Below are positions 457 through 29,399 of a stretch of DNA of 32,886 bases, one piece after another. Source of the DNA: Sedimentisphaerales bacterium (GTDB taxonomy: Bacteria > Planctomycetota > Phycisphaerae > Sedimentisphaerales > Anaerohalosphaeraceae); assembly GCA_016926155.1 (NCBI GenBank), contig JAFGPC010000108.1, positions 1 to 32,886 on the forward strand, in the 5' to 3' direction. The position numbers were made by a program, and so were the translations under genes. The stretch's first letter is position 1, and the number at the start of each line of letters is the position of its first letter. A model generated the notes under the pieces. The model was not told the origin of the DNA, ran no database searches, and saw only the letters and a program-made list of their open reading frames with translations.

Positions 457-534
457 AAAATTGTAGTATAAGAGGTAACAACTTGGCCGGCCGAATAAGG
501 CTGAGCCGAAACAGAAGTTGCGGAGGCAAACACG

Positions 535-924: not shown

Positions 925-1001
925 AGCAGGTAAGGTATTACAGGAAATGGCAGGATGAGGAATGTTTCGGGGCAGCCGTTGTGGTTGCCCTGCTGTTTCT
1001 T

Positions 1002-2809: not shown

Positions 2810-4117
2810 ATGACACAGCGTATCGTCATAACGGGAATGGGAATTGTTTGTCCGATCGGTCATGATGTGGAGACGATGTGGGACAATCTGCTGGCCGGGC
2901 GCAGTGGAGCTGCACCGACAACGATCTTTGACGCCAGCACCTTCCCGACCACTTTCGGGGCTGAGGTTAAGGACTATGACCTGTCCCGTTTTATAAACAA
3001 TCCCAAGCTGCACGAATATGGCAACCGCGGCTCGAAATTCGTGTTAGGGGCATCCGTTCAGGCATGCCAACAAGCCGGGATTGATGTAGAGACAGACCAT
3101 CCTTCCGATGGGATCGACCGGGAGCGGATGGGGATCTATCTTGGCGCCGGGGAAGGATCGGTGGACAATGACGCCTTCTTTGCAGCCATTGTTAAAGGTT
3201 GGAAAAACGAATCCAACCAGATGGACTGGGCCGGATGGGCTGAGGTCGCCAATGCCAAGATGACACCCTATCGAGAACTGGAGCAGGAACCGAACTTGCC
3301 GGCCGGGCATATCGCATTGCTCACGGGAGCACGCGGCGAGACGCGAAGCTGTCTGACAGCATGCGCTGCCAGTACCCAAGCAGTCGGTGAAGCGGCCATG
3401 ATGATTCGTCACGGGCGAGTCGACATTATGATCGCCGGAGGAGCTCATTCGATGATCCACCCACTGGGTGTAACCGGTTTTAATCGACTGACCGCCCTTT
3501 CGACACGAAATGAAAGCCCCCAGACGGCATCCCGGCCCTTCTCGGCAACACGCGATGGTTTTGTGCTGGGCGAGGGAGCAGCAATCGTAATTCTTGAATC
3601 ACTCGATTCGGCTCGAAAACGGGGAGTACCGATCCTCGCGGAGATCACAGGCTTCGGCTCGAGCAATGACGCCTTCCGTGTAACCGACATGCATGAAGAA
3701 GCCCGCGGGGCGGTACAGGCCATGCGAGCGGCTCTGAAAGATGCTGGCGTGACACCGGATCAGATTGATTATATCAGTTCGCACGGCACCAGCACAACCG
3801 AGAATGACTCGATTGAGACGCTGGCAGTTAAGACCGTCTTTCAAGAATACGCCGTCAAAACGCCGATCAGTTCTCCGAAGAGCGTCTTCGGGCATCTGAT
3901 CGGGGCGACCGGATGCGCCGAGTTGATTACGTGCGTGCTGGCGATCCGGGATCAAATACTGCCGCCGACAATGAATCTGCACGATCCGGATCCGGCACTG
4001 GACCTGGATTATGTACCCAACAAAGCCCGAAAAGCCAACGTGAATTGTATAATGACCGAATCCTTCGGCTTCGGTGGGCAAAACAATGTCCTGATCCTGA
4101 AACAATTTGAATCATAG
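2810..4117 (+). CDS. Beta-ketoacyl-ACP synthase II-like, catalytically intact
   Basis: A 435-residue FabF-family condensing enzyme starting RIVITGMGIVCPIG. The complete Cys-His-His triad is present: Cys185 in LTACAAST, His325 in SSHGTSTTEND and His362 in KSVFGHLIGATG. It catalyses decarboxylative condensation of malonyl-ACP with an acyl chain. It begins immediately after the stop of the Cys-less ketosynthase, with no spacer, which fits equimolar production of a KS-alpha/KS-beta pair. The neighbouring ACP and dehydratases make a dedicated elongation system plausible; ketoreductase and enoyl reductase genes are not in the window and could lie upstream. It could instead be an ordinary fabF, but the degenerate partner argues for a specialised system. 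Confidence 0.92.
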   Translation: MTQRIVITGMGIVCPIGHDVETMWDNLLAGRSGAAPTTIFDASTFPTTFGAEVKDYDLSRFINNPKLHEYGNRGSKFVLGASVQACQQAGIDVETDHPSDGIDRERMGIYLGAGEGSVDNDAFFAAIVKGWKNESNQMDWAGWAEVANAKMTPYRELEQEPNLPAGHIALLTGARGETRSCLTACAASTQAVGEAAMMIRHGRVDIMIAGGAHSMIHPLGVTGFNRLTALSTRNESPQTASRPFSATRDGFVLGEGAAIVILESLDSARKRGVPILAEITGFGSSNDAFRVTDMHEEARGAVQAMRAALKDAGVTPDQIDYISSHGTSTTENDSIETLAVKTVFQEYAVKTPISSPKSVFGHLIGATGCAELITCVLAIRDQILPPTMNLHDPDPALDLDYVPNKARKANVNCIMTESFGFGGQNNVLILKQFES

Positions 4118-4162: not shown

Positions 4163-5434
4163 ATGATCGATATCAAGCAAATTCGACAAGAACCGGATCG
4201 ATTCAAACAGGCAGCACAAATCAAGCGGATAGAGGCTGATATTGACCGGCTGCTGGAGGTCGATACAAAACTGTTCGAAACCCGTAAGTTACTCCAGGAT
4301 ATTGCCACAGAAAAAAATCGGATCGGCAAGGATATCCCCAGGCTCAGCAAAGAGGAAAAACAACCCCTGCTGGACAAACTCGCTGAACTCAAGACCATCG
4401 AAGGTAATCTGAATGAATCAATCAAACTTCTCCAGCCGGAATTTGACTCCTTGATACTGCAGGTACCCCAACCGCCTGCCGAGGATGTGCCGGAGGGAAA
4501 AGACGATACTGAAAATGTCGAGCTGCGAAAATGGGGTCAGATTCGCCAGTTTGATTTTGAGCCAAAGGATCACATTCAATTGGGAATGGAACTGGGTCTG
4601 ATTGATGTGGAACGCGGAGTTAAGCTGGCCGGGACACGAAACTACTTTTTAACCGGCGATGGAGCCCTTCTGCATTGGGCTGTACTTCGGTTTTCCTTTG
4701 ATCACATGGTTTCCAAAGGCTATCGGCCGATGACCGTACCACTGTTGATGCGGGATGAGGCCATGCGCGGCACCGGATACTATCCCGGCGCCGAAGAGCA
4801 GACGTATCGCATGGAGCGTGATGAATTGAATTTAGCCGGTACCGCGGAGGTGCCACTAACAGCATATCGGTCCGATGAAATCCTTTCTGAAGAAGATCTG
4901 CCGCTCAAGTTTGTCGCGTTGAGTACCTGTTTTCGCCGTGAGGCGGGCGCTGCAGGCAAGGACACCTATGGCTTGTACCGTATCCATCAGTTTGAAAAGG
5001 TCGAACAGGTCATCATCGGAGAAAATGATGAGCCCAAAAGCATCGCCTATCACCAGGAGATCCTGAGCAACTCCGAGGCGGTCATGCAGGCAATGGAACT
5101 GCCATATCGTGTGGTCAATGTATGCTCAGGCGATCTGGGCCGCGGCCAGGTGCAGAAATTCGATATCGAGACATGGATGCCTTCTCGCAACAGTTATGGT
5201 GAGACACACTCGGCCAGCCGGTTTTATGAGTTTCAGGCCCGTCGGATGAACCTGCGTTATAAACAGGCTGACAAGAAGAACGTTTTTTGTCACACCCTCA
5301 ACAACACTGTAATTGCTTCACCACGAGTTTTGATTCCGATTCTGGAACTCTATCAGAATGCCGACGGATCGATCACGATCCCCGAGGTTTTAAGGCCCTA
5401 CATGAATGGTCGGGACCGCATCACGCGATCTTAA
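4163..5434 (+). CDS. serS: Seryl-tRNA synthetase
   Basis: A 423-residue class II aminoacyl-tRNA synthetase that charges tRNA-Ser in the cytoplasm. The N-terminal 100 residues are the charged antiparallel coiled-coil arm that recognises the long variable arm of tRNA-Ser. The catalytic domain shows LAGTAEVPLTA, motif 2 around FRREAGAAGKDTYGLYRIHQF, and motif 3 in NNTVIASPRVLIPILE. Length matches the family. It starts 45 bp after the ketosynthase, so may be read through from that operon. The cognate tRNA-Ser(GCT) lies in the same window at 20569-20659, unlinked in function to this location. Confidence 0.98.
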   Translation: MIDIKQIRQEPDRFKQAAQIKRIEADIDRLLEVDTKLFETRKLLQDIATEKNRIGKDIPRLSKEEKQPLLDKLAELKTIEGNLNESIKLLQPEFDSLILQVPQPPAEDVPEGKDDTENVELRKWGQIRQFDFEPKDHIQLGMELGLIDVERGVKLAGTRNYFLTGDGALLHWAVLRFSFDHMVSKGYRPMTVPLLMRDEAMRGTGYYPGAEEQTYRMERDELNLAGTAEVPLTAYRSDEILSEEDLPLKFVALSTCFRREAGAAGKDTYGLYRIHQFEKVEQVIIGENDEPKSIAYHQEILSNSEAVMQAMELPYRVVNVCSGDLGRGQVQKFDIETWMPSRNSYGETHSASRFYEFQARRMNLRYKQADKKNVFCHTLNNTVIASPRVLIPILELYQNADGSITIPEVLRPYMNGRDRITRS

Positions 5435-10091: not shown

Positions 10092-11333
10092 TTATTTCTT
10101 CGCCTTTTGTCCCGTTCGTTTGACCTGCCGGTCTACAATCCCCGCTACTTTCATCGGTAAACCAAACAACCGGATGAATCCTTTTGCATCCATTGGATCA
10201 TATTCGGCCCCCATTTTGAAGCTGGCCAGATCCGGACGATATAAGCTTTTGGAACTCTTCATCCCTGCCAGTGTCGCACGCCCTTTATACAGTTTGAGAC
10301 GTACCGTCCCCGTAACATTTTGCTGGGTTTTATCGACAAATGAGTCCAAGGCTTCCCGAAGAGGACAGAACCATTGGCCATAATAGACCATTTCAGCGTA
10401 TTTCAAGGCAATCTGTTGCTTGAAATGCATGGTTTCCCGGTCCAGTGTCAGGCTTTCCAATGCCTGATGGGCCGTCACAAGTATCGTTCCACCGGGAGTC
10501 TCATAAACCCCTCGAGATTTCATTCCTACCAGACGGTTTTCGACCAGATCCGCCTGACCGACACCATGTTTGCCACCGATTTCATTCAACGTTTCGATGA
10601 GTTTTACACCACCGACAACGCGACCGTTTAACTTGACCGGAATCCCCTTTTCAAAGCCGATTTCGACATATTCGGCCTTATCAGGGGCCTTGGATACAGG
10701 CTTAGAAATCACAAAAAGGGGATCCTGCGGTTCATTCCAGGGATCTTCCAGATCCGCTCCCTCATGGCTGATATGCCAAAGATTTCGATCCCGTGAGTAG
10801 ATTTTCCGTTTACTCTGTTCGATGGGGATTTTGTGCTTTTTGGCATAGTCCACGGCAGCCTCACGGCTGGTTAAGGTAAAATTCGGATCCTTCCATGGAG
10901 CAATGATTTTCAGGCTTGGATCCAGAGCCATAAACGTTAACTCAAATCGTACCTGATCATTCCCCTTGCCGGTGGCACCATGCGCAACAGCAGTAGCGCC
11001 TTCGGCATGGGCGATATCCACCTGTTTCTTGGCAATCAACGGGCGTGCAATGCTGGTTCCCAGTAAATAATGATTCTCATATATGGCACCGGATTTGATC
11101 ATAGGCCAAAGATAATCTTCTACGAACTCCTTACGCAAATCCTGAACAACACACTTAATTGCTCCCGTTGCCAAGGCCTTCTTTTTGATCCCCTGAAGCT
11201 CATCGCCCTGTCCCAATTCAGCCGCAAAAGCGATCACCTCATAACCATATGTCTCCTTCAGCCAGGGTAGGATGACGCTTGTATCCAGCCCACCGCTATA
11301 GGCAAGCACTACTTTTTGAGCCTTTTCCGTCAT
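10092..11333 (-). CDS. argG: Argininosuccinate synthase
   Basis: A 413-residue enzyme joining citrulline and aspartate with ATP in arginine synthesis. The N-terminal PP-loop is [18 protein letters not shown]. Other signatures are [31 protein letters not shown] and [15 protein letters not shown] chose ATG 11333 (MTEKAQK) because AGGAA precedes it at a good distance and it places the PP-loop where the family has it. An in-frame GTG at 11357 would add eight residues without family support. It is the first gene of the - strand group argG-prepilin peptidase-lipoprotein. A TATAAT lies about 50 bases upstream. Confidence 0.96.
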
Positions 11334-11382
11334 ATTCTGGTTCCTATAAGTATACACATTGCTCTCATCCGATAATTTTCTT

Positions 11383-11662: not shown

Positions 11663-11914
11663 ATGAGCTATCGTGAGGTTATAAGAAATTTCATTGTTGA
11701 GACGTTTCTTTTTGGCGAAGAAGGAGACCTGGAAGATCATACATCATTTCTGGAAAGCGGTATTATCGACTCAACAGGAATCCTTGAACTAATCACTTTT
11801 CTTGAGGAAACATACGGAATCAAGATTCAGGATGACGAATTGATCCCAGACAATCTGGACAGCCTTCAAAACGTAGTCGCCTTTCTTGATAAGAAAGTGC
11901 CATGTGCGGGATAG
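11663..11914 (+). CDS. Small acyl/peptidyl carrier protein
   Basis: An 83-residue carrier protein. The attachment Ser is Ser37 in SGIIDSTGILELITFLEE, with typical four-helix spacing and the helix ETYGIKIQDDELIPDN. ATG 11663 is preferred over the in-frame GTG at 11654 because AGGTGATC (11652-11659) matches the anti-Shine-Dalgarno sequence directly upstream. Its 3' end overlaps the start of the amidotransferase gene by 13 bases, so the two are translationally coupled. It is unlike the long ACP at 535. It probably carries an acid activated by one of the two downstream AMP-forming ligases. In other bacteria such carrier proteins occur beside asparagine-synthetase-like genes in surface-polysaccharide or exosortase-type loci; that is a family-level comparison only. 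Confidence 0.88.
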   Translation: MSYREVIRNFIVETFLFGEEGDLEDHTSFLESGIIDSTGILELITFLEETYGIKIQDDELIPDNLDSLQNVVAFLDKKVPCAG

Positions 11915-13881
11915 CCGGCATTTGCCGCCTTTCTACCTCCAGTTCCATTGACCTGGATTGCCTACAAAGAATGGTCGCTGTACAGCGTCATCGCGGCCCT
12001 GATGAATCAGGTTTCTATCTCGACGACGGGGTAGGCCTTGGACATGTCCGTTTGAGCATTATTGATCTATCCGGCGGTTCTCAACCGATCCATAATGAAG
12101 ATCGATCGCTTTGGATTATCTATAATGGGGAAGTATTCAATTATCCTGAATTGCGGGAGGAATTGATCTGTCGAGGGCATCAGTTTTATACCAGCAGCGA
12201 TACCGAAGTCATTCTGCACCTGTATGAAGAGAAGGGGCCGCAATGTCTGGAGGACCTGAACGGCCAGTTTGGGCTGGCTATCTGGGACTCGACAAAGCGT
12301 GAACTATTTTTGGCAAGAGATCGGATAGGGATTCGACCGCTTCATTATGCCACCACGGAAGGAAAACTGGCATTCAGTTCGGAAATCAAGGCTCTTTTTC
12401 AGATGCCGGGCCTTCCACGACGAATCGACCCGATCGCGATGGACCAGATCTTTACATTCTGGACTACCTTGCCGGGTCGAACCGTATTTGAGGGAATTCA
12501 CGAATTACCGGCCGGACATTATATGCTGGTTCGAAATGGATCCTTTGAAATTCATCAATACTGGGATGTTCCTTTGTATTCCAAGGACCATTGGATCGAT
12601 GCTCCCATCGAAGAAATAATCGAGCAGATTGACGAGCTTCTGACGGATGCGATTCGTATCCGCCTGCGGGCCGATGTCCCGGTGGGTTGTTATCTAAGCG
12701 GCGGACTTGATTCTTCGGGTGTTACTTCAAGAGTATCACGTCATTTTAATAACCGCGTAAAAAGTTTTGGAATTCGATTTGAGCATCCTGATTATGATGA
12801 AGGTTCACATCAAAATCTAATGGTGAATTATCTGGGAGTCGATCATAAAGAAATCCATGCCACCAACGAACAGATCGCTCGCTCATTCCCCGATGTTATC
12901 CGGCATGTGGAAAAACCGATTCTGCGAACCGCCCCAACTCCACTGTTTCTTCTTTCACAATTGGTCCATGAATCCGATTTCAAGGTTGTATTGACCGGCG
13001 AGGGTGCAGATGAATTTTTTGGCGGCTATAATATATTTCGGGAGGCCAAGGTATGCCGCTTTTGGGCACGACAGCCTGACTCCGAATCGCGTCCAAAACT
13101 ATTGGGGCATCTATACCCGTATGTTTTCAAGGATCCCCGTCTCGTTCAAACACTTAGATCCTTTTTTGCTCGCAGTCTGTATCAGACGGAAAGCCCATTA
13201 TTCTCTCATCTGGTTCGATGGGAAAACACCAGCCGCATAAAGACTTTTTTCAGTTCGGAACTGAAGGCTCAAATTGGCCATTACAATGCACTGGAGGATT
13301 TAACACAAACTCTGCCCTCGGATTTGAATCATTGTGATTCCTTATCAAAAGCACAGTTCCTTGAGGCGAAGATCTTTTTAAGCAATTATCTTCTTTCTTC
13401 TCAGGGGGATCGTGTCGCGATGGCCCATTCACTGGAGATTCGTCTACCCTATCTTGATCGACGGCTGATGGAATTTATCATGCGGGTTCCCCCGCGGTGG
13501 AAAGTGCTCGGTCTCCGGGAAAAACATATTCTCAAGCGCGTTTTGGCCAACGACTTGCCCGACGCGGTATTACAACGCCCAAAACATCCTTATCGTGCAC
13601 CAATTCGAGAAAGTCTTCTAGGTGCCGGGGGACTTTCATATACGCAGGAATTGCTCCACGAACAAATCCTTCGTAATACCGGACTCTTTGATTGTAAAAG
13701 AGTAAACTCTTTATTGTTGAAAGCAAAACGATCGTTACAGCTCAGCGAAACGGATAATATGGCAATTGTTGGGATTTTATCCACCCAACTTATTAATGAT
13801 ATGTTTATTACAAACTGCCCCAGCGTCCAAATGCCAAATCATGCTCCTACTGTATTTGTGGATGCACGAAAAAAAACATAG
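11902..13881 (+). CDS. asnB: Glutamine-hydrolysing asparagine synthetase-like amidotransferase
   Basis: A 659-residue two-domain enzyme. The N-terminal glutaminase domain starts MCGIAGIC, so Cys2 is available as nucleophile after Met removal, with HRGPDESG and a conserved GEVFNYPELR loop. The C-terminal synthetase domain has the PP-loop CYLSGGLDSSGVTSRV and later GEGADEFFGGYN and DRVAMAHSLEIRLPYLDRRL. Known chemistry: glutamine-derived ammonia is passed to an AMP-activated carboxylate; true AsnB uses aspartate. Its 13-base overlap with a carrier-protein gene, and ligase and NadE-like genes downstream, suggest a specialised amidotransferase rather than simple asparagine supply, though the sequence cannot exclude the latter. 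The next gene starts 22 bp downstream. Confidence 0.9.
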   Translation: MCGIAGICRLSTSSSIDLDCLQRMVAVQRHRGPDESGFYLDDGVGLGHVRLSIIDLSGGSQPIHNEDRSLWIIYNGEVFNYPELREELICRGHQFYTSSDTEVILHLYEEKGPQCLEDLNGQFGLAIWDSTKRELFLARDRIGIRPLHYATTEGKLAFSSEIKALFQMPGLPRRIDPIAMDQIFTFWTTLPGRTVFEGIHELPAGHYMLVRNGSFEIHQYWDVPLYSKDHWIDAPIEEIIEQIDELLTDAIRIRLRADVPVGCYLSGGLDSSGVTSRVSRHFNNRVKSFGIRFEHPDYDEGSHQNLMVNYLGVDHKEIHATNEQIARSFPDVIRHVEKPILRTAPTPLFLLSQLVHESDFKVVLTGEGADEFFGGYNIFREAKVCRFWARQPDSESRPKLLGHLYPYVFKDPRLVQTLRSFFARSLYQTESPLFSHLVRWENTSRIKTFFSSELKAQIGHYNALEDLTQTLPSDLNHCDSLSKAQFLEAKIFLSNYLLSSQGDRVAMAHSLEIRLPYLDRRLMEFIMRVPPRWKVLGLREKHILKRVLANDLPDAVLQRPKHPYRAPIRESLLGAGGLSYTQELLHEQILRNTGLFDCKRVNSLLLKAKRSLQLSETDNMAIVGILSTQLINDMFITNCPSVQMPNHAPTVFVDARKKT

Positions 13882-13903
13882 ACACAGGAAAACTTTTCAA
13901 TAG

Positions 13904-15490
13904 ATGATTGATTTCGATCCGATTCTTGTTCACGAATGGTTGCGATATACCGCAAAACGCTTTCCGGAGAAAGTGGCCTTAATTCAGAACTCCAAGCAAT
14001 GGACATACGCTCAGGCAGATCAAATTTCAGATGGTCTCGCGCTGCATCTAATGCAACGAGGAGTTCGTCGTCATGATCGAATCGTTATATTTACCGACAA
14101 TTCACCGGAAACTGTGTTTTCCCTCTATGGGATTTTAAAAGCCGGCGGTGTTTTTATCGTAGTTTCTGCCACAATGAAAGGTCATAAATTACGTTATATC
14201 CTCGATAATTCAGGAGCCACCGGTCTGATTGTTCATACATCCAAGGCTTCGGTGGTAAATGAAGCTCTGTCCGGTTTTTCTTCCCCCCTTACAGTTTTTT
14301 GGACCGGCAACAAAAAACAAATCCCATCCAACTTACAACAATATTCCTCTTTTTGGGATGATATTGTCTCCGATGGCAACACGACCCTTATATCCAAAGA
14401 GGATTTTCCACGATGTATTGATGTGGACCTGGCCTGTTTGATTTACACATCGGGTTCAACGGGTCAGCCTAAAGGAGTTATGTCAACGCATCATAATATG
14501 GTTTCCGCAGCCCGAAGCATTATTCAATACATAGACAACCAGCCGGATGACATCATCCTGGATGTGCTTCCATTATCGTTCGATTACGGACTATATCAGG
14601 TAATCATGGCGTTCATGTTCGGAGGAACCATCGTTCTGGAGCAATCGTTCACTTTTCTCCATCATACCTTGGCGCAGATTTCTAAATATAAAGTAACAGG
14701 TTTCCCTGTCGTGCCCACGATTGTTGCCATGCTCTTAAATTTAAACAATCTTTCAAAATATGACTTTCGCTCTTTGCGATATATAACCAATACCGGCGCA
14801 GCTTTGCCGATAGAACACATTCGTAAACTTCGGAGCTTATTACCCGATGTGCGTATTTACTCCATGTTTGGACTTACAGAGTGTAAACGGGTTGGATACA
14901 TGCCGCCGGAATATCTGGATCAATATCCAGGATCCGTAGGAAAAGCCATGCCCAACTGTGAAACGTTTATCCTGGATGAGAAGGGAAATGAATTACCACC
15001 CGGGCAGGTCGGCGAGTTGGTTATCCGCGGGGCCAATGTAATGCAGGGGTATTGGCAATCCACTGAAAAAACCGACAGGACGTACAAACCTGGACATTAT
15101 CCGGAAGATCGCAGACTTTATTCCGGAGACTATTTTCAAGAGGACGAAAGAGGATTTCTGTACTTTCTCGGTCGTAAAGACGACATGATTAAAAGCAAAG
15201 GAGAACGAATCAGCCCTCGTGAGATTGAAGAAGTATTATGCAAAATGAATGGAATCACCGAAGCCGCTGTTATCGGCATACCCGATCCAATTCTGGGGCA
15301 GGCAATCAAGGCATTTATTGTATTACAAGCTTCGACGCCATTGGATGAAAAGGACATCCTCCAATATTGCGCTAAAAATCTGGAGTCTTTTATGGTTCCT
15401 CAACATATTGTGTTGTGTAAAAGCCTGCCTCGCACCCCCAATGGAAAGATTGATAAAAAGCAATTAGCAAATGAATCTTCCTCCATGTAA
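13904..15490 (+). CDS. AMP-forming acyl-CoA/acyl-ACP ligase, copy 1
   Basis: A 528-residue ANL-superfamily adenylating enzyme. The P-loop motif is LIYTSGSTGQPKGVM, motif A5 is MFGLTECKR, the hinge region is SGDYFQEDERGFLYFLGRKDDMIKSKGERISP, and the C-terminal catalytic Lys is in TPNGKIDKK. It adenylates a carboxylic acid and transfers it to a thiol, here perhaps the carrier protein at 11663. It is clearly paralogous to the ligase at 15655; shared strings include YGLYQVIMAFMFGGT and RYDFSSLRY-like segments, so the pair arose by tandem duplication. An AGGAAA lies ahead of ATG 13904. Substrate cannot be read from sequence. Confidence 0.92.
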   Translation: MIDFDPILVHEWLRYTAKRFPEKVALIQNSKQWTYAQADQISDGLALHLMQRGVRRHDRIVIFTDNSPETVFSLYGILKAGGVFIVVSATMKGHKLRYILDNSGATGLIVHTSKASVVNEALSGFSSPLTVFWTGNKKQIPSNLQQYSSFWDDIVSDGNTTLISKEDFPRCIDVDLACLIYTSGSTGQPKGVMSTHHNMVSAARSIIQYIDNQPDDIILDVLPLSFDYGLYQVIMAFMFGGTIVLEQSFTFLHHTLAQISKYKVTGFPVVPTIVAMLLNLNNLSKYDFRSLRYITNTGAALPIEHIRKLRSLLPDVRIYSMFGLTECKRVGYMPPEYLDQYPGSVGKAMPNCETFILDEKGNELPPGQVGELVIRGANVMQGYWQSTEKTDRTYKPGHYPEDRRLYSGDYFQEDERGFLYFLGRKDDMIKSKGERISPREIEEVLCKMNGITEAAVIGIPDPILGQAIKAFIVLQASTPLDEKDILQYCAKNLESFMVPQHIVLCKSLPRTPNGKIDKKQLANESSSM

Positions 15491-15654
15491 GAAACCTTTC
15501 AACTCACAATCTGTTTTCCACCCGTTTTTCGTCTCCGCTTGATTCCTACACCTATTTCATATGTTGTTATCAGGTTACGTCTATCAATCCTTTTGTCGAT
15601 GCAAAATCAGTAATGTCATGAGTGCGTCCGATAATCAAAAAGGAGTTATAGACT

Positions 15655-17292
15655 GTGATTTTACCACAAAACAGTCATGTTCAAACAAAGAAAAAAGCAT
15701 TGTATGAAGTACAAGCTATACCACGATTGCTTCACGATTCTCTACATTACACAAGCCGGAGAATGCCGTCGAAAGAAGCGCTCATTTGCGGGCAAACTCG
15801 ATTGGCGTACCGGCAAGTTGATCAGTTATCGGACAATATTGCAAAAAATCTCATACAATCAGGATTGCTTTGCCATGATCGCGTTGCTGTCTTTTTGGAC
15901 AATTCCATTGAAACCGTATTGTCTATATACGGCACATCAAAAGCAGGCGGCACTTTTGTCATTCTGAATGGAACTTTGAAAGCTCCTCGTCTTGCCTATA
16001 TCCTGGACAATGCCGGGCCCCGATTTATCATCGCCCATACGACCAAGGCCCGCATCCTTAAGGAAGCCTTAGAACGAATCCGGCTTGACTGTACAATTAT
16101 TTGGGTCTCTCCTACCGGGAAAATTCCAAGAGACTGGCCATGGAAGACGTCCTTGTGGGAAACCATGATCAAAGAACCTTCGAAATCATGCTATTCATTT
16201 GCAGAGCCGGGAACAATTGATCGAGACCTGGCCTGTCTGGTGTATACCTCAGGATCCACCGGAACTCCAAAAGGGATCATGACGCCGCATGCAACCATGC
16301 TGGCTGTCTCCCATAGCATCATTTCCTATTTGGAAAATACCGAAGATGACATTATTCTCAACGTTCTCCCAATGTCTTTTGGATACGGGCTTTACCAGGT
16401 GATTATGGCGTTCATGTTCGGAGGAACCGTCATCCTCGAAAAATCCCTGGTTTATCTGCACAATATTCTGGAGCGGATCTCCCAAGAAAAAGCAACGGCC
16501 TTTCCCTTTGTACCAACGATTGCCGCCATGCTTTTTCAAATGCAGGATCTTGATCGCTATGATTTCTCTTCTCTTCGTTACGTAAGCACTGCCGGGGCAG
16601 CCCTCCCGATGGAACACATTCGTCGCGTACGAAAGCTGATACCGAATGCGCAACTCTTTTCCATGTACGGTTTGACGGAGTGTGCCCGCGTCAGCTATCT
16701 GGATCCGTCACTGGTGGATATTTATCCCGATTCCGTAGGCAAAGCTATCCCCCATTGTGAGGTATTCCTCCTCGATGAAAACCATCATCCAATCCCCAAC
16801 GGACAAATTGGCGAGTTGGCCGTACGCGGCTCCAATCTCATGCCGGGATACTGGAACGACCCTGTTTTAACCTGCAACGTTTTCCGCGAAGACATTCTAC
16901 CGGGAGAGCGAGTCTTGTTAACCGGGGACCTGTTCCGACAGGATGAACAGGGACTTCTCTATTTTGTCGGTCGCAAAGATGACATGATTAATACCCGAGG
17001 TGAACGAATCAGCCCTCTTGAAATTGAACATATCCTCAGTAAAATGTCCGACATTTCCGAGGTCGCTGTAATCGGCGTTCCTCATGACGTGTTCGGCCAG
17101 GCCGTAAAATCGTTCATCGTAATTGCTGCGGGATCAACGTTGACAGAAGATGAAATTCGACGATTCTGTAATATGAATATGGAAAATTTCATGGTTCCCG
17201 AATATATTCAGATTGTGGACAACCTCCCGAAAACGCCAAACGGGAAAATCGACAAGAAAGTCCTTAAGGAAATGGAGAAAACAGAACTGTGA
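15655..17292 (+). CDS. AMP-forming acyl-CoA/acyl-ACP ligase, copy 2
   Basis: A 545-residue ANL-superfamily enzyme with LVYTSGSTGTPKGIM, MYGLTECAR, TGDLFRQDEQGLLYFVGRKDDMINTRGERISP and the catalytic Lys in TPNGKIDKK. The start is GTG 15655 with AGGAG at 15641-15645. It has an extra N-terminal stretch of about 20 residues relative to copy 1. A 164-bp spacer separates it from copy 1, longer than elsewhere in the cluster. Its stop overlaps the GTG of the NAD-synthase-like gene by four bases (GTGA), so those two are coupled. Retention of two full-length ligases with all motifs suggests two different acids or two acceptors. Confidence 0.92.
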   Translation: MILPQNSHVQTKKKALYEVQAIPRLLHDSLHYTSRRMPSKEALICGQTRLAYRQVDQLSDNIAKNLIQSGLLCHDRVAVFLDNSIETVLSIYGTSKAGGTFVILNGTLKAPRLAYILDNAGPRFIIAHTTKARILKEALERIRLDCTIIWVSPTGKIPRDWPWKTSLWETMIKEPSKSCYSFAEPGTIDRDLACLVYTSGSTGTPKGIMTPHATMLAVSHSIISYLENTEDDIILNVLPMSFGYGLYQVIMAFMFGGTVILEKSLVYLHNILERISQEKATAFPFVPTIAAMLFQMQDLDRYDFSSLRYVSTAGAALPMEHIRRVRKLIPNAQLFSMYGLTECARVSYLDPSLVDIYPDSVGKAIPHCEVFLLDENHHPIPNGQIGELAVRGSNLMPGYWNDPVLTCNVFREDILPGERVLLTGDLFRQDEQGLLYFVGRKDDMINTRGERISPLEIEHILSKMSDISEVAVIGVPHDVFGQAVKSFIVIAAGSTLTEDEIRRFCNMNMENFMVPEYIQIVDNLPKTPNGKIDKKVLKEMEKTEL

Positions 17293-18284
17293 GAACACAA
17301 AAAAAAATGTCTGCTGACGTATTGAATCTGGATTGCCGGAAGGAAACAGAAACGATCGTAAACGAAATTCGTAATCTTCTTCGAAACAACCTCAAACGCC
17401 AGGGACTTGTGGTAGCCATTTCGGGAGGTATTGACAGTTCCACTGTAGCCGCTTTGTGTGTTCAGGCTGTCGGAAAAGAACGAGTCTTTGGATTGATGAT
17501 GCCCGAAAGACATTCGGCTGGTGAAACAAGAGATTTTAGTAGAATGCTGGCGGATCATCTGGGAATTGAGTCGTTCCTGGAAGATATCTCCGAAATGCTT
17601 GAAGCGGTTGGGTGTTATCGCAGGCAAACGGAGGCCATTCAAAAGATCATCCCCGATTATTCGCAGGAATGGAAAAGCAAAATTGTGTTACCCAGTGTTA
17701 TTGACAACGATTCCTATCGTATTTTTTCAGTCGTCGCCCAGTCTCCGGATGGACGTCAGGTAAAAGAGCGACTGACTCCGAAAGCGTATCTTGGGATCGT
17801 AGCGGCCACCAACTTCAAACAGCGGATTCGAAAAATGCTGGAATACTACCATGCCGACCGGTTGAATTACGCCGTAACGGGCACACCCAATCGATTGGAA
17901 TATGATCAGGGCTTTTTCGTCAAGCTTGGAGATGGGGCGGCCGATGTCAAACCGATCGCTCACCTATACAAAACGCAAGTATATGCTATGGCGCGTCACC
18001 TGGGACTGCCGGATGAGATATGCAATCGACAACCGACAACCGATACTTATTCGATGCCGCAATCACAAGAGGAATTTTATTTCTCATTGCCCTATGACAA
18101 AATGGATTTATGTCTTTTCGGCAAAAATCACGGATACAGTCCTATTGATGTGGCTTCGGCGGTAGGATTGACTGCGGAACAGGTTCAACGGGTATTTGAC
18201 GACATTGACCAGAAACGAAAGACCACACGATATCTGCATCTTAAACCCCAGCTAATCAAAGAGGTATTGGAAATCGAAGTATGA
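17289..18284 (+). CDS. Ammonia-dependent NAD synthase homologue
   Basis: A 331-residue N-type ATP pyrophosphatase of the NadE family. It shows the PP-loop VVAISGGIDSSTVAAL, a substrate-region segment ATNFKQRIRKMLEYYHADRL and GTPNRLEYDQGFFVKLGDGAADV. NadE adenylates the carboxylate of deamido-NAD and replaces AMP with ammonia. There is no N-terminal glutaminase (CN-hydrolase) domain, so ammonia must come from elsewhere. GTG 17289 overlaps the ligase stop; ATG 17307 is an alternative. Relative to housekeeping NadE there is extra sequence around residues 110-165. Position in a carrier protein/amidotransferase/ligase cluster suggests recruitment as an amide-forming enzyme, but genuine NAD synthesis is possible. 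Confidence 0.88.
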   Translation: MRTQKKMSADVLNLDCRKETETIVNEIRNLLRNNLKRQGLVVAISGGIDSSTVAALCVQAVGKERVFGLMMPERHSAGETRDFSRMLADHLGIESFLEDISEMLEAVGCYRRQTEAIQKIIPDYSQEWKSKIVLPSVIDNDSYRIFSVVAQSPDGRQVKERLTPKAYLGIVAATNFKQRIRKMLEYYHADRLNYAVTGTPNRLEYDQGFFVKLGDGAADVKPIAHLYKTQVYAMARHLGLPDEICNRQPTTDTYSMPQSQEEFYFSLPYDKMDLCLFGKNHGYSPIDVASAVGLTAEQVQRVFDDIDQKRKTTRYLHLKPQLIKEVLEIEV

Positions 18285-18306
18285 TTGTAAAACAAAGAGA
18301 AAAGCA

Positions 18307-19179
18307 ATGACTTCTAAGAAGAATTATACATGGCTTTGCCTGGTTGTTTTCCTGGCTCTTGCCGCCATTTCGACGATTCATCTCTATGGAAAAAGGGATC
18401 GATTCAAAATGAAAGAAAACAAACTGCCTCAATTGGAAAACATTTCCACTGAAACATGGAATATCCTTGCGGAACGAAAGGTTTTTTTTGCCCATATGTC
18501 TGTTGGCGATAATATTCTCGACGGCGTAAAAGACGTTATCGCGGATAATGACCAGATCAAAATCACCCTTGTGGAAGTGGCTCAATCCGGAGAGATCGAT
18601 AGGCCAATGTTAGCTCATGCCAAACTCGGACACAATACCCGTCCATTGGCTAAAATAGAATCGTTTCGTGAATGGATGAAGAAGATCGCACCGGCCAAAC
18701 CGGACATCGCATTGATGAAGTTCTGCTATGTTGACATAGGAGATGATACAAACGTTGAGGCCCTTTTTAAAGAATACCGCAACCTCGCTGACGAATTGCA
18801 CGCCGATTATCCTGATATCATTTTAATACACACAACAGCTCCTCTATGCTCATCGCCTGTCCGTATTAAGAGAAGTATGAAAGAGGCCGTCAAGGCCCTA
18901 GTTGGAAAAGCCGTCACTGTAAATGACAATCTCAAACGTGAGCAGTTTAATGAATTACTCCGTAAAACATATGCAGGCACAGAACCTCTCTTTGATATAG
19001 CTGATATAGAATCTACCACTGTCGATAATAACCGTTGCTATATAAAACACAAGGGCCAGGATGTTCCAATGATGGTCAAAGCATATACAAACGATAGTGG
19101 ACATTTGAATGAATTGGGACGACGAATCGTTGCTGAACAATTTTTAATTACATTGGTCAATATCGTTTCAAAACAATAA
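18307..19179 (+). CDS. Membrane-anchored SGNH/GDSL-like hydrolase
   Basis: A 290-residue protein with one N-terminal membrane segment (about residues 8-26) and no clear cleavage site, so probably anchored outside the cytoplasm. The fold is suggested by FFAHMSVGDNIL, where block I GDS is replaced by SVGDN, by KFCYVDIGDD in the middle, and by a C-terminal DSGHLNELGRRIVAE that fits the DxxH catalytic block. Known for the family: esterases and acyl transferases, including polysaccharide O-acetyl-modifying enzymes. It follows the NadE-like gene by 22 bp on the same strand and probably ends the operon. Inferred role: adding or removing an acyl group on a surface molecule. The nucleophile assignment is uncertain because block I is atypical. 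Confidence 0.68.
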   Translation: MTSKKNYTWLCLVVFLALAAISTIHLYGKRDRFKMKENKLPQLENISTETWNILAERKVFFAHMSVGDNILDGVKDVIADNDQIKITLVEVAQSGEIDRPMLAHAKLGHNTRPLAKIESFREWMKKIAPAKPDIALMKFCYVDIGDDTNVEALFKEYRNLADELHADYPDIILIHTTAPLCSSPVRIKRSMKEAVKALVGKAVTVNDNLKREQFNELLRKTYAGTEPLFDIADIESTTVDNNRCYIKHKGQDVPMMVKAYTNDSGHLNELGRRIVAEQFLITLVNIVSKQ

Positions 19180-19185
19180 CTTTTA

Positions 19186-20367
19186 TTACTCTTCCTGATA
19201 GATTCGATACAAGTGTACATCCCAGACGTCAAAGTGATCAACGAAAGATCCGTCATGTACGGGAAGCATTCTTTGCTCACCCAATACTTCCACAGATGTT
19301 TTATCGGATTGGACTCGAAGAGTGACTGTCATCTGGGTTTTTTCCGGTCGCATGGCCACTGTAAACAAATATAATTCCTTATCACTAGCCTTCGCTATAA
19401 AAGCGATCGGGACCGATGGATTGCTTGATGTAAGAAATATTTTTTCCTCTTGTGATGGACGATTGAGGATCGGTGCTAATGCATGGACTTGCTGGTTGAT
19501 CTTTGTAACTCCGGCAAGCATATCCGAATCATCCAATAAGGCCGATTCATTGAAACGGGGTTCCCATTCGTGCACAAAATAGATCAAGCCCCGTGATCCA
19601 TGGATCAGTGACATCCACACCTCACAACGGACCTCATGCGGAGTGGGCCTGGCCGTCTTGCTCTGGATGCGAGTGCACTCGATACAGTTCCAGACTACTT
19701 TAGTCCCATTTGACCATTCCTTCAACCGCTGCACGCCTTTGGGCACAAACCATAGTTTTCCGGCCACATCGGGATTGCGATGCACTACTGGATAAATATC
19801 AAAGGAGACAATATCGCAACCCTGGATATACAGCGGATAATCCTCGGGATGGTTTCTACGAACCCCCCTTCCTATCCAATTGTCATAGGCGACTCCCTGC
19901 CCCAAATTTAACAAAATCGGCCGGGATGGATCAACATCTCTTATATGTTCATAATCAGAAGTGATCTTTGATGGCGGTATCGGCGGACCATATCCCTGAC
20001 CATCCTTTCGGGCCTGGGTATTGTCGGGCTCATCCCCATGCATCCACCCAATAATGGTCGGATCGTCCCGATGCTGCAAACCCACCTCATTCGGGACACA
20101 AATAAGTTTCATCCCAGCAGCTTTAAGCTGGGCAAGCTGGATTTCGGTAGGTCCTTTCCATAACCCAACATAGGTATTGATACCAGCCTGTTGATATTGC
20201 TGTGCCTTTCGTGGGTCCTGAAGCCATACGGCAATAGGGAAAAAATCATTCGATTTCGGGGGGCCGTTCCTCCATTGCCCATAGGGATTCGCAATAGCCC
20301 GCGGAACCATGAAAAAAGCCAACATCCATACAAGAATTAGTACGATATTCAGCCATTTTTTTTCCAT
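19186..20367 (-). CDS. Secreted TIM-barrel glycoside-hydrolase-like protein
   Basis: A 393-residue protein with a signal peptide (hydrophobic stretch about 7-22, likely cut near AIA-NPYG). The body starts FFPIAVWLQDPRKAQQYQQAGIN, typical of the first strands of clan-A-type (beta/alpha)8 barrels. Candidate catalytic acids are in GWMHGDEPDNT and in VWNCIECTRI, as expected for acid/base and nucleophile Glu after strands 4 and 7; FVHEWEPRF is also present. It resembles GH42-like proteins common in Planctomycetota/Verrucomicrobiota, but I cannot name a family or substrate. A GGAGG precedes ATG 20367. It ends 6 bp from the convergent SGNH gene with no evident terminator between. Confidence 0.72.
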   Translation of the reverse strand: MEKKWLNIVLILVWMLAFFMVPRAIANPYGQWRNGPPKSNDFFPIAVWLQDPRKAQQYQQAGINTYVGLWKGPTEIQLAQLKAAGMKLICVPNEVGLQHRDDPTIIGWMHGDEPDNTQARKDGQGYGPPIPPSKITSDYEHIRDVDPSRPILLNLGQGVAYDNWIGRGVRRNHPEDYPLYIQGCDIVSFDIYPVVHRNPDVAGKLWFVPKGVQRLKEWSNGTKVVWNCIECTRIQSKTARPTPHEVRCEVWMSLIHGSRGLIYFVHEWEPRFNESALLDDSDMLAGVTKINQQVHALAPILNRPSQEEKIFLTSSNPSVPIAFIAKASDKELYLFTVAMRPEKTQMTVTLRVQSDKTSVEVLGEQRMLPVHDGSFVDHFDVWDVHLYRIYQEE

Positions 20368-20568: not shown

Positions 20569-20659
20569 GGAGAGGTGGCCGAGCGGCTTAAGGCAACGGT
20601 TTGCTAAACCGTCGTACGGGTTCAAACCCGTACCCCGGGTTCGAATCCCGGCCTCTCCG
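20569..20659 (+). tRNA. tRNA-Ser (anticodon GCT)
   Basis: A full cloverleaf of 91 bases. The acceptor GGAGAGG (20569-20575) pairs with CCTCTCC (20652-20658), with discriminator G. The anticodon stem ACGGT/ACCGT encloses loop TTGCTAA with GCT at 20603-20605. A long variable arm with stem GTACGGGTT/AACCCGTAC is the class II hallmark of tRNA-Ser, and the T arm is CCGGGTTCGAATCCCGG. CCA is not encoded; a T-run follows at 20660. It reads AGC/AGU codons. Phage-derived genes begin directly downstream, so it may have served as an integration site. Confidence 0.97.
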
Positions 20660-23917: not shown

Positions 23918-26900
23918 TCAACGACATACCCGAAATCCATGACTATGATACGTGCTATCTGGTGGTGCTTTGTATCTGCCCGTAACCTCGCTGGCAATCT
24001 TTCCATTAGGCCAACAACCACCCAGAAAAATTCGGTCATCAGGATCGCATTCTTGATTATAACAACTACTCGTCCATTCCCATACATTTCCTGCCAAATC
24101 ACAAAGGCCATAACCATAAGCACCAAAGCTACCTACGGGTGTTGTACCGTTAGGATGAACTGAATCACGGTAGTTTGCCATATTATTATCTATCGTTGGA
24201 CCACAACCATATTTATAACTGCCGTCGTAGTCTGCCACAGCCTGCCATTCCCATTCAGTTAGTAGCCGATAGCCATAATAATTACAAAAAGCTGTTGCGC
24301 CATACCAGCTAACATAACTTACAGGATGATCTTCAAAACTGCTATCAACAGTAAATATGCTACCGTTATAATTAATTCTTGCTGCACCCCCATTTGTCGC
24401 GCCGTTGTCGGTATATCCTGGCCCAGAAAGGTCAAAATATACAAGATTAATATAATCCTCTCCTGGATTTGAACCGTTCGCTCCGTAAATCATGCTTCCA
24501 TCGATTGTAATATCACCAGTTGTTAAGGCAGCATTTAGAAATGTAGCGAATTGAGCATTGGTAGTTTCATATTTGCTCACATAACCATCAAAGCCCTCAT
24601 GACCAGTTACACCCGGATCATCAACATAAACCCATTCAATGTTGAGGAAATTGTCTGTAGCACTATATAGCCAGTATTTTACAAAATGTAAGAAATCTTC
24701 CATGTCTACATCATTTGAATGATTCATATCCGCATTTTCACACCAATTAAACTGCCAACAGTCCTCATGCATCCACCATTCTGCTAGGATCTTATAATCT
24801 GAAAGATCAACTTGCTCATCTGAGTTGGAGTCCGGAGGAATGTCCACAGAAAATCTAATGAGGGTAGCGCTGCCCAAGCAGGTATCTGGGCTGTTCTTGT
24901 CTACTACAAGTAAGCAATTTTCCCTGCTAAGGCCCAAGGTGTCAATGTGTATATTAAAGGGTAAATTCGGAGTGATTTGAACAGGTAAGATTTCTAGCCA
25001 TGTCATAGAATCTGAAATCTCAATCCAGTCAATATTTGTATCTGTCCAAATAATTGATAAGGGCAGTTCTGTTATTGTTTGCAAATCTTGTGGATTCTGC
25101 ACTTCAGGCCAATCTGGATAATTACCTTCTTGACGAATTAATTGATGTGAATAGGAAGTGCCATCAGAACAAGAAATGTTGATTAAATATATGCCTGTCG
25201 TAAACGTATTCTCAATATCCGTAAGAGAAACTGGGCTGTATCCAAAAACATCCTCTTCATCCATACTGGCAGGTTCTCCTGCTTCTAAACCAGTGACAGT
25301 CCCTCCAAGCACGGTTAAATCCGGTAAGGTTATGGTTGCTTCTGTTAGCGTTTTATCACTTGGAGGCCATACAATCCCATTCCACCAACCATCTGGCTCT
25401 TGAGATCCAGTGCCGTATCTCAAGCGAGTTATTTCAAAGTGATAATCTAACGGGATTTGTTTTACTTCACAATTAAGCTCAATATCGTGAGTTCTTCCTC
25501 CGCCAGAACCAGTTAATGTAATAGCATAGTTATCGACTGGAGTGTCTTCTGAAGTGTTAACGGCAACAATTACCATCGCGTATGGTGTAACTGTAGCAGG
25601 TTCGATTTGGATAGAAACATTTGGAGGTATATTTGAGGCTGAAAGCATAACAGGACTGGAAAAATCTCCTATCTTATCAATCGTAATACGATATTGAACA
25701 CTTTCACCCTGTACAACTTCGAGATTATTTTCTTCAACTGATAAAGAAAAGTCCAGTTTGCCTTTTACCTCAAAAGGTCCATAGTATTTAATGTCATTAC
25801 TTGGATTTGTATCTGTAAATTTAGTGTTTGTATTTGCCTTGAGAACTAAGTATAGTGTACCAATGTCACTCTCCTCAAACAAAACGGGGAATGGTCCACT
25901 GTCAGGCATTTCTTCTGTCTCGCCGGGTGACAAAGTATCACCATCAACCGGCGAATCCTGAAGTTCATTACTCATGTCATTAGATGCAGTCCCAAGATAA
26001 ATCCCAGTATCAAAATCAACGATATCTTTTGGTCCATGGTTGATCGCTGTCCAAGAGAATGAAACAGTATCACCAACATAAAACGGAGGTGTATGGGAAC
26101 TTGCAATTGAAGGAGTTGTCACTTCGAGGTCTGTAGGGCCTGTTTCGATATATCTCACATATAGTCTTGGGTGGTAAGATGAATTTGAATGTTCTTTACT
26201 TGCGATTTCAGCTACACTTCCAGATCTATCATTTTGATATATAAGAAAGCCGTGATTATCGTAACTGCCATTTACAGACCACTGCCGTACTATGCTATAG
26301 ACATTAATAATAACATCTTCGTTGTCATCAATTGAAGATGAAGTAATCTCAACGCCCTGTACGCCTGAATTAAAATTATCCTCCGTTACAGTTTCACTCC
26401 AATCATTGGCGACGGCCTTAATTTTGAATCGAGGACTTCCAGTTGTATCAAATGCATGCAAAACAAGTTGTGCTGAAGCAATCTCTTTACTACCAATGTC
26501 TCCCAAATCAAATTTTATAAGTGCCTTTTGATAGCTGTACTGTCCGGGATAGCTTGGTATTTCAGGCTGACCTACCTTAAGTATTTGATCCGTTTTGTGC
26601 TGGGTATAAGGATTTAAGCCGTCAAGCCAAGTGTCCTTTTCAACGGGCGCACTGCCCGGGTTGGCGACATCGCCAATTATGAGTTTAACACTAATATCTT
26701 TTGGTGATCCTTGTGCCCCAGAAGCAGACACTTGAACGTTGCCATTATAAGTGCCTTTAGATAATGAAGAAGAGTTCGCACCGATATAGATATTGCTCGG
26801 AGCTGTCCCGCTTGTTGAAGTTGCTCCATTGACTCTTAACCAACTGAAACCTGAAGTTACACTGGCAGTCCAATCATTCATCGTGCCACTACCACTGTTA

Positions 26901-28138
26901 TCAATTGATATTCTTACATCATCCGGATTGTATCCCTGAGATATTGCAAATTCCACGTTATTGCTTGATAACCATAGAGCTGGAGCAGGCGAGGGACCAA
27001 ATACATCAAAAACCAAAGACCATGGATTAGGCATCGGATTGCCATCAATGTCCTTTACACCACTTCCCATCGTTATTGTTACTGTTTCCCACGAAGTAAA
27101 ATCTGTATCTGGATTGATTGTTAATTCATAATTATTACTATCAAAGCTAAATGAGCAGCTATGTGATTGACTTGATGAACCTGTGACACTAATCGTCTGG
27201 TTTGTAAAAGTCGAAGTATCCATTTCTTTGTTAAATATTACTGAAATATTAATATCAGTCTCAGCAATGTTGTCATTTTCTGGAGTTGAAGAAAGTATTA
27301 TGGGGAAGTCAGGTGTAACTGACACCTCTAAGTCGAGGTCTAAACGGAGGATTGAAACTCGTCCTCCCAGTGCAGCTTGAGTGTGTGCATAGGTATCCGA
27401 ATCAACATTTACTGTCCAAGTATAAACGGTTCCCTCTTCCAACCAAGCTTTTGTGGATAATGATTCATCCAACACTACTATTTGTTGCAAGCCTGAAGTA
27501 TGAACCTGTTTGTAGTAATCTATAGCAGTTCCAACACCGCTATTAAAGGCTGTGTCTAAGATTTGCGTAACAATAAGATCTTCGAGAAAATTTGTATCTC
27601 CAAGATTTTCTACATGATATACGTCAGGCAAATTTAATGGTGATACTCCAATCGGAGTACTACTCTGATAAAATCCTGTATGCAAATCGAGATCAAAATC
27701 ACTCCATCCTTTACCAATAAATGTATTCCCGCCTGCATGTATCTGAGCTAATCCATTTAAATTTGCATTTAAAGAATATAATCCAGCTTGAGAAACGACA
27801 AATGTTGCTTCAATTATATCATCAGCACTAATCTCAGAATTACCGGACAAACCAAATAATGAACCAGCGCCTGCAATCGTATTGTGTTGTAGAAATCCAT
27901 ATTCGTCAGGTTCCCATTCTGAATTTCCATTTGTGTCGTCCCATCTCCATAAAGTACTTGCCTTTGCATAATAATCATTTTCCGGCATATGATTAATGAT
28001 TCTATTTTGATTACGCAAGTCATATTCTTTCCATGTAATGCCTTCGATTGGAACCACTAATTGTTCACCATAAGTCTCTTGTGAAAACATTGACACCGTT
28101 AAAAAAGAAAGAAATACATAGATTATCTGACATCTCAT
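23918..28138 (-). CDS. Large secreted multidomain protein with dockerin-like and FGE-sulfatase-like domains
   Basis: A 1406-residue protein with a signal peptide (first 24 residues, cut near TYG-EQ). Visible parts in order: a unique N-terminal region (about 25-275); an Ig-like SbsA-type domain (about 280-385, NKEMDTSTF); a BACON-like beta domain (about 395-500); a DNRLRE-type carbohydrate-associated domain (about 510-670, KALIKFDLGDIGS); a CARDB-like domain (about 675-800); a further beta-sandwich (about 800-900); a dockerin-like EF-hand pair (about 1150-1200, DSNSDEQVDLSDYK and ADMNHSNDVDMEDF); and a C-terminal formylglycine-generating-enzyme-like domain (about 1210-1406) with YETTNAQFATFLN, PVSYVSWYGATAFCNYYGYRLLTEWEW and LAGNVWEWTSSC. 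AGGAGG precedes the ATG. It is visibly AT-richer than the phage genes on both sides. Probably a surface or extracellular polysaccharide-interacting protein. Confidence 0.85.
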   Translation of the reverse strand: MRCQIIYVFLSFLTVSMFSQETYGEQLVVPIEGITWKEYDLRNQNRIINHMPENDYYAKASTLWRWDDTNGNSEWEPDEYGFLQHNTIAGAGSLFGLSGNSEISADDIIEATFVVSQAGLYSLNANLNGLAQIHAGGNTFIGKGWSDFDLDLHTGFYQSSTPIGVSPLNLPDVYHVENLGDTNFLEDLIVTQILDTAFNSGVGTAIDYYKQVHTSGLQQIVVLDESLSTKAWLEEGTVYTWTVNVDSDTYAHTQAALGGRVSILRLDLDLEVSVTPDFPIILSSTPENDNIAETDINISVIFNKEMDTSTFTNQTISVTGSSSQSHSCSFSFDSNNYELTINPDTDFTSWETVTITMGSGVKDIDGNPMPNPWSLVFDVFGPSPAPALWLSSNNVEFAISQGYNPDDVRISIDNSGSGTMNDWTASVTSGFSWLRVNGATSTSGTAPSNIYIGANSSSLSKGTYNGNVQVSASGAQGSPKDISVKLIIGDVANPGSAPVEKDTWLDGLNPYTQHKTDQILKVGQPEIPSYPGQYSYQKALIKFDLGDIGSKEIASAQLVLHAFDTTGSPRFKIKAVANDWSETVTEDNFNSGVQGVEITSSSIDDNEDVIINVYSIVRQWSVNGSYDNHGFLIYQNDRSGSVAEIASKEHSNSSYHPRLYVRYIETGPTDLEVTTPSIASSHTPPFYVGDTVSFSWTAINHGPKDIVDFDTGIYLGTASNDMSNELQDSPVDGDTLSPGETEEMPDSGPFPVLFEESDIGTLYLVLKANTNTKFTDTNPSNDIKYYGPFEVKGKLDFSLSVEENNLEVVQGESVQYRITIDKIGDFSSPVMLSASNIPPNVSIQIEPATVTPYAMVIVAVNTSEDTPVDNYAITLTGSGGGRTHDIELNCEVKQIPLDYHFEITRLRYGTGSQEPDGWWNGIVWPPSDKTLTEATITLPDLTVLGGTVTGLEAGEPASMDEEDVFGYSPVSLTDIENTFTTGIYLINISCSDGTSYSHQLIRQEGNYPDWPEVQNPQDLQTITELPLSIIWTDTNIDWIEISDSMTWLEILPVQITPNLPFNIHIDTLGLSRENCLLVVDKNSPDTCLGSATLIRFSVDIPPDSNSDEQVDLSDYKILAEWWMHEDCWQFNWCENADMNHSNDVDMEDFLHFVKYWLYSATDNFLNIEWVYVDDPGVTGHEGFDGYVSKYETTNAQFATFLNAALTTGDITIDGSMIYGANGSNPGEDYINLVYFDLSGPGYTDNGATNGGAARINYNGSIFTVDSSFEDHPVSYVSWYGATAFCNYYGYRLLTEWEWQAVADYDGSYKYGCGPTIDNNMANYRDSVHPNGTTPVGSFGAYGYGLCDLAGNVWEWTSSCYNQECDPDDRIFLGGCWPNGKIASEVTGRYKAPPDSTYHSHGFRVCR

Positions 28139-29339: not shown

Positions 29340-29399
29340 CTCGGCCTGGAACTCGATCCGCGTAACCTTATCCCCGGAAATCGGCGACGGTATCGGCCA

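Follow-up and report, generated by a model that had tools for sequence, protein, structure and literature searches.

A repurposed NadE paralogue may form part of a carrier-protein-based activation and amidation cassette for cell-surface glycans

Dlt D-alanylation, a form of envelope decoration, uses the ligase DltA, the carrier DltC, the MBOAT protein DltB and DltD, and includes an exported SGNH-type protein. In Porphyromonas gingivalis, the AsnB homologue WbpS (PGN_1234) makes a sugar uronamide, and the authors of that work link WbpS-like AsnB genes to exosortase loci (PMC7468200). Cell-wall diaminopimelate is also amidated by AsnB-type enzymes (PMC8554201), and in the floc formers Zoogloea and Aquincola two asparagine synthetase genes belong to a conserved exopolysaccharide cluster (PMC9012009). 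For glutarimide clusters, malonamyl-ACP has been proposed to come from a discrete acyl carrier protein (ACP) acting with an AsnB homologue (PMC7756379). Here we describe a six-gene block, hereafter the cassette, on a 32,886-base contig (G000:C161; examined whole and called the window) in the 5.0 Mb assembly of a Sedimentisphaerales bacterium. The cassette joins an ACP, an AsnB-type enzyme, two AMP-forming ligases, a NadE-like paralogue and an SGNH-like protein. We give a roughly even chance to the reading that it activates and amidates a small acid for the decoration of a cell-surface glycan, with loading on the ACP, amidation by the AsnB-type and NadE-like enzymes and an SGNH step outside the cell. 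That a repurposed NadE paralogue is the unusual part of a carrier-protein-based activation and amidation cassette is a proposal that we hold with moderate confidence.

All six open reading frames (ORFs) are open, lie on the + strand and together span 11663-19179:

11663-11914, + strand: ACP, an acyl or aminoacyl carrier with a PP-binding domain (PF00550); ATG start, with an alternative GTG at 11654 possible.
11902-13881, + strand: AsnB-type glutamine-dependent amidotransferase/synthetase with Asn_synthase (PF00733) and GATase_7 domains.
13904-15490, + strand: Lig1, an AMP-forming ligase of the D-type (FDYGLYQ) with AMP-binding (PF00501) and C-terminal domains.
15655-17292, + strand: Lig2, an AMP-forming ligase of the G-type (FGYGLYQ) with AMP-binding (PF00501) and C-terminal domains.
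17289-18284, + strand: NadE-like paralogue of the PRK00876 subfamily (NAD_synthase, NF002048).
18307-19179, + strand: SGNH-like hydrolase/transferase, membrane-anchored and probably exported, recognized from a structure model; no Pfam match.

ORF calling confirmed what an earlier note on this DNA had read from the letters, namely six + strand genes with a 13-base overlap between the ACP and AsnB genes and a 4-base overlap between the Lig2 and NadE-like genes. The remaining junctions are gaps of 22 bases (AsnB/Lig1), 164 bases (Lig1/Lig2) and 22 bases (NadE-like/SGNH), and the 164-base gap makes a second promoter ahead of Lig2 possible. The block is flanked by argG (10092-11357, - strand), which is divergent from it, and by a convergent minus-strand ORF at 19186-20367. 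An Rfam search near the operon found no element.

Each described system matches the cassette in part. Dlt shares the adenylation enzyme, the small carrier and the exported SGNH-type protein, but it has no amide-forming enzyme where the cassette has two; a Dlt-like reading was rejected, as a Pfam scan of the window ORFs found no MBOAT domain. In the Wbp/Vim system of P. gingivalis (WbpS, the deacetylase VimE and the FemAB-like VimA), an AsnB homologue amidates the carboxylate of a surface sugar, and deacetylase and FemAB genes likewise lie beside some cassettes; as described, however, Wbp/Vim lacks a ligase, an ACP and a NadE paralogue, and no VimA-type FemAB was found in the cassette host. A complete Wbp pathway near cassettes was considered and rejected: several loci hold single aminotransferase, dehydrogenase and WecB-type genes, and the aminotransferase that we tested fell below every specific cut-off. 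The glutarimide clusters (ChxBCD, MgsHCD, GdsBCD) are alike in that a stand-alone ACP is paired with an AsnB homologue, for which amidation of the carrier-bound acid has been proposed, but there loading is by an acyltransferase rather than a ligase, no NadE paralogue is present, and the product feeds a polyketide synthase. The XrtA/PEP-CTERM exopolysaccharide sub-cassette (TIGR03098/TIGR03108) includes the nearest curated subfamilies of the ligases and the AsnB-type enzyme, and the cassettes of Desulfobacterota and some Planctomycetota likewise lie within exosortase loci. The cassette proteins nevertheless score below those curated cut-offs, the NadE-like and SGNH-like genes are additions, and many cassette loci have no exosortase gene nearby. 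Literature searches for this gene combination found no description, although papers outside the searched library are possible.

To follow the cassette across genomes, we scanned named genomes with the NadE-like protein, which gave 80 loci in many phyla (about 60-75% identity); the 80 loci analysed take in the window and four relatives, and a few loci were dropped at ORF calling. ORFs were called in each locus and matched to the six window proteins, and all neighbours were clustered. The ACP, AsnB, ligase and NadE-like genes occurred together within 9.5 kb in 45 of the 80, and 19 of these 45 also carried the SGNH partner, which was present in 27 loci overall. Only seven loci held the NadE-like gene alone, and several contigs were short. 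The earlier note had named scattered homologues as a finding that would count against its reading; the neighbourhood proved strongly conserved. Even its fine structure recurs: the exact 13-base ACP/AsnB overlap is found in four other loci (L046, L048, L049 and L126), the 4-base ligase/NadE-like overlap in 9 of the 23 loci that share that gene order, and annotated Sinorhizobium medicae and Shinella records show the same 4 bases.

The four-gene set recurs in about ten bacterial phyla, and the loci come from Planctomycetota, Spirochaetota, Desulfobacterota, Actinomycetota, Verrucomicrobiota, Fibrobacterota, Acidobacteriota and others, the closest named homologues being Planctomycetota, Sedimentisphaerales among them. 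All four genes are annotated on alphaproteobacterial megaplasmids of S. medicae, Mesorhizobium, Shinella and Azospirillum; the record for Sinorhizobium meliloti pSymB lists the ACP, ligase and nadE genes, with an unlisted stretch where asnB belongs. In one actinobacterial set (L121), an adjoining gene belongs to the phosphopantetheinyl-transferase family. Pelobacter carbinolicus, also tried as a lead, was a false one. In the tree of NadE-like proteins, the window sequence groups with Planctomycetota beside Spirochaetota, and well-supported branches force Planctomycetota into at least four separate positions. Because phyla are partly clustered, the tree is best read as a mixture of inheritance and transfer, to which binning errors in metagenome-assembled genomes may add noise. 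Distance matrices of the cassette proteins correlated for every pair (r 0.40-0.67, above all 999 permutations). When only cross-phylum pairs were compared, nine of ten gene pairs were still correlated (reached by 0-1 of 999 permutations), whereas the AsnB-SGNH pair was not significant (94 of 999). By these patterns the cassette genes have largely travelled together, which would make the block a mobile biosynthetic cassette.

The host has other copies of the genes that could be taken for housekeeping ones. Its two-domain NadE lies on contig C38, apart from the block, and of its six full-length AsnB-like genes three are on C17 (about 74-88 kb) and two on C97 (about 158-163 kb), clusters that are possibly other polysaccharide loci; the concern that the cassette AsnB and NadE might be the only such enzymes in the genome is thereby removed. 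Only four strong AMP-binding genes were found in the host, and two of them are Lig1 and Lig2. With so few AsnB-like and AMP-binding genes in the genome, and with the set recurring in many genomes, a chance meeting of AsnB and ligases in one block is unlikely. The NadE-like gene itself is patchily distributed, as it exceeded the family cut-off in 8 of 59 sampled related genomes and was found in 11 of 294 sampled Planctomycetota genomes. Among 14 control genomes, Methanosarcina acetivorans alone had a PRK00876-type NadE over the family cut-off, and a search of phage records for the NadE-like gene gave no match.

The NadE-like protein belongs to the PRK00876 subfamily (NF002048, 517 bits against a cut-off of 313) and is an N-type ATP pyrophosphatase without a glutaminase domain. 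Its model superposes on nicotinamide mononucleotide (NMN) and NAD synthetases (3fiu, Z 29.8 over 238 residues at a root-mean-square deviation (rmsd) of 2.6; 2e18, Z 29.6). The PP-loop SGGIDS is invariant among its homologues, and this ATP loop and several adenylation residues are common to the NadE-like protein and the housekeeping NadE of the host and its relatives. The NadE-like protein could therefore be a genuine accessory NAD+ synthetase whose neighbours form an unrelated acid-activation set: NCBIfam names PRK00876 an NAD(+) synthase, the protein shares the ATP loop and many active-site residues with NAD synthetases, and by fold it lies closest to NAD or NMN synthetases. We regard this as very improbable, since the gene is tied to AsnB, ACP and ligase genes in many phyla, the checked relatives that carry it have another NadE-family match elsewhere in the genome, and the protein differs from small ammonia-dependent NAD and NMN synthetases by about 40-54 extra residues (counted from alignments) between positions of about 98 and 174. 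This family-specific segment, part of which forms beta strands in the model (129-133, 147-151 and 157-161), lies in a region where Y110, R161 and L162 are invariant. The intact core, the conserved extra segment and the fixed genetic partnership together suggest that the substrate has changed and is probably not nicotinic acid adenine dinucleotide (NaAD).

Two further observations concern relatives of this protein. In L054 (7382-8383; also G055:C119:8827-9780 and G341:C76), a second ACP of the same cassette is adjoined by another, divergent NadE-like paralogue, which shares about 36% identity with the window protein and sits on a very long tree branch. NadE1 and NadE2 of Azospirillum brasilense, considered as family members, were rejected because both are glutamine-dependent two-domain enzymes.

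Intact catalytic motifs are also present in other proteins of the cassette. The ACP (PF00550, 26.1 bits against a cut-off of 20.8) carries its phosphopantetheine serine in a DSTG motif conserved in at least 90% of 60 homologues. The AsnB-type enzyme (PF00733, 285 bits; GATase_7, 155 bits; TIGR01536, 521 bits) retains the glutaminase Cys2 and the SGGxDS loop, each in at least 90% of 76 homologues; its nearest specialized subfamily is the XrtA amidotransferase TIGR03108, at 472 of the 817 bits of the cut-off. Lig1 (PF00501, 309 bits) and Lig2 (278 bits) score 477 and 439 bits against the cut-off of 592 for TIGR03098, and Lig1 reaches 267 of 317 bits for TIGR01733, so that all three scores fall below their cut-offs.

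The ligases may hold clues to the acid. Lig2 is 51% identical to Lig1 and has a glycine at the position of Lig1 Asp227, which in the alignment matches the FD of adenylation domains in gramicidin synthetase (the GrsA Asp235 position). In adenylation domains, the aspartate at this position binds the amino group of the amino acid. Across cassettes, the ligase slot is filled by D-type (FDYGLYQ), G-type (FGYGLYQ) or a third class of enzyme (F-x-Y-x-x-G-x-S-L), and the S. medicae and Mesorhizobium cassettes (L151, L153) carry a D-type ligase. Arg329, three residues past the G-x-T-E motif, is shared by 74 of the 75 cassette ligases, whatever their class, and it is absent at that place in gramicidin synthetase and in the non-cassette ligase L157 (few controls were parsed). 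A near-invariant arginine beside the pocket, confined to cassette enzymes in this comparison, may reflect a substrate that bears an extra negative charge.

The product of the last gene had no Pfam match, and a PDB sequence search with it gave nothing meaningful. Its AlphaFold2 model (pLDDT 90.8, with an N-terminal helix at 6-28) has an SGNH fold, the best match being 4ppy (Z 16.1, rmsd 2.9 over 182 residues). The catalytic serine and the histidine of DxxH are kept: among 26 homologues Ser65 and Asp263 are invariant and His266 is conserved in at least 90%. Block I reads HxSVG rather than GDS, and the invariant G108-x-N110 is a putative counterpart of block III (GxND). Because several homologues show lipobox-like N-termini, the protein probably acts outside the cytoplasm. 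Both esterases and acyltransferases are among the proteins that its fold resembles, and the enzyme may work in either direction, by transfer or hydrolysis.

What ties the cassette to surface glycans is its surroundings in other genomes. At least one exopolysaccharide marker occurred in 42 of the 80 loci, a raw count over the cassette loci alone, and an exosortase (TIGR02602) over cut-off is among these markers. In Desulfobacterota the cassette sits inside XrtA-type loci with a deacetylase (TIGR03006), FemAB (TIGR03019) and EpsI (TIGR02914) over cut-off; TIGR03019 was exceeded in L061, L089 and L106. Exosortase and exopolysaccharide genes are co-located with the cassette in relatives such as L051, L052, L054, L056, L061, L066 and L091, and in the first four of these a nucleotidyltransferase-exosortase fusion lies just downstream of it. 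The Shinella set has an exopolysaccharide transport gene close by, and the Azospirillum set has a deacetylase, glycosyltransferases and a GNAT gene alongside. Such fusions of a sugar-nucleotidyltransferase-like domain and an exosortase occur in Planctomycetota polysaccharide loci, with a host copy on C71.

Several observations weigh against a role in glycan decoration. No glycosyltransferase, flippase or dedicated acyltransferase adjoins the block among the scanned window ORFs, which agrees with the earlier note as regards glycosyltransferases, and no exosortase or exopolysaccharide gene is among these ORFs either, the host exosortases being on other contigs. The exosortase-polysaccharide core of the host lies on C71, without the cassette, and the host genome has no TIGR03019-type FemAB match; its best match to the TIGR03006 deacetylase reaches 48.9 bits against a cut-off of 276. 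The cassette stands alone, in the order AsnB-ACP-ligase-NadE with a polysaccharide-deacetylase-domain protein, in three complete genomes of related Planctomycetota (L143, L144 and L148), and in S. meliloti it lies near minCDE and unrelated genes. These isolated cassettes, together with a conserved core that has no acyltransferase, would also fit the production of a free small amide, secreted or intracellular (a metabolite, osmolyte or signal), with the polysaccharide context incidental. We consider this unlikely though worth keeping in view: exopolysaccharide markers accompany about half of the loci, and the probably exported SGNH partner is hard to square with a cytoplasmic metabolite. The suggestion of the earlier note that the block makes an amidated acyl decoration for a surface polymer is thus partly supported and points in the right direction, short of proof: the exopolysaccharide context and the WbpS uronamide precedent (PMC7468200) speak for it, and the window without a linked glycan gene and the stand-alone cassettes against it.

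The exosortase loci raise another explanation, in which the cassette makes an amidated, amino-acid-bearing linking sugar for exosortase-processed proteins, as the Wbp/Vim sugar serves cargo of the type IX secretion system. Such a sugar has been put forward as a speculation for exosortase loci that also hold genes for FemAB, a deacetylase and AsnB (PMC7468200), the cassette lies within such loci in Desulfobacterota, and an exosortase is present in 58 of 59 related genomes. Yet only eight of these 59 carry the NadE-like gene, so exosortase does not need it; the cassettes of Actinomycetota and Alphaproteobacteria have no sorting genes detected nearby, and the missing TIGR03019 in the host also argues against this explanation, which we judge to be distinctly improbable.

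We therefore favour activation of an acid on the ACP, amidation and use in a surface glycan, because published precedents (WbpS, malonamyl-ACP, the Zoogloea and Aquincola cluster, and diaminopimelate) supply the parts. We infer the order of steps, the substrates, the product and the acceptor as follows. A ligase would adenylate the acid and attach it to the phosphopantetheine arm of the cassette's own ACP, as its family suggests. The AsnB-type enzyme would then use glutamine to amidate a carboxylate, either on the carrier-bound acid or on a sugar uronate, and the NadE-like enzyme would perform a second adenylation-amidation, probably on a substrate other than NaAD. Transferases from outside the block could hand the product on to a glycan precursor; an exported SGNH-like protein, if the locus has one, might transfer or trim the acyl group outside the cytoplasm. 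A broader proposal, attractive but tentative and in our view somewhat doubtful, is that PRK00876, rather than being an NAD synthase, represents a new class of adenylating amidase for a carrier-bound or nucleotide-linked acid, which with the ACP, AsnB and exchangeable ligases would form an unnamed, horizontally spread system supplying amidated acyl or aminoacyl donors to surface glycans across many phyla.

The rest of the window holds genes outside the cassette. At 1-4117 (+ strand) lie a FabA-like ORF, an ACP, another FabA-like ORF and two tandem beta-ketoacyl synthases, followed by seryl-tRNA synthetase (4163-5434); this set is about 7.5 kb upstream of the cassette, and the intervening genes include three on the minus strand. 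The statement of the earlier note that no condensing enzyme is present accordingly holds for the block, although the window contains this separate ketosynthase pair. A tRNA-Ser (gct) gene (20569-20659, + strand) lies beyond the convergent ORF at 19186-20367. Further along are a 1406-residue ORF that combines a Big_5 domain with an FGE-sulfatase (formylglycine-generating-like) domain at its C-terminus (23918-28138, - strand), a 238-residue fragment of a Mutator-family transposase that matches only the first part of the profile (29162-29878, - strand), and a 633-residue protein with HATPase and Ser/Thr protein kinase domains (30574-32475, + strand).

If the cassette does activate and amidate an acid for surface glycans, many genes annotated as 'NAD(+) synthase' and 'asparagine synthase', in organisms as different as planctomycetes and nitrogen-fixing rhizobia, would be misnamed parts of surface chemistry, and some of the undefined chemistry of exosortase-associated exopolysaccharides would gain specific candidates. 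As a copy lies on pSymB of the genetically tractable S. meliloti, the product can be sought directly.

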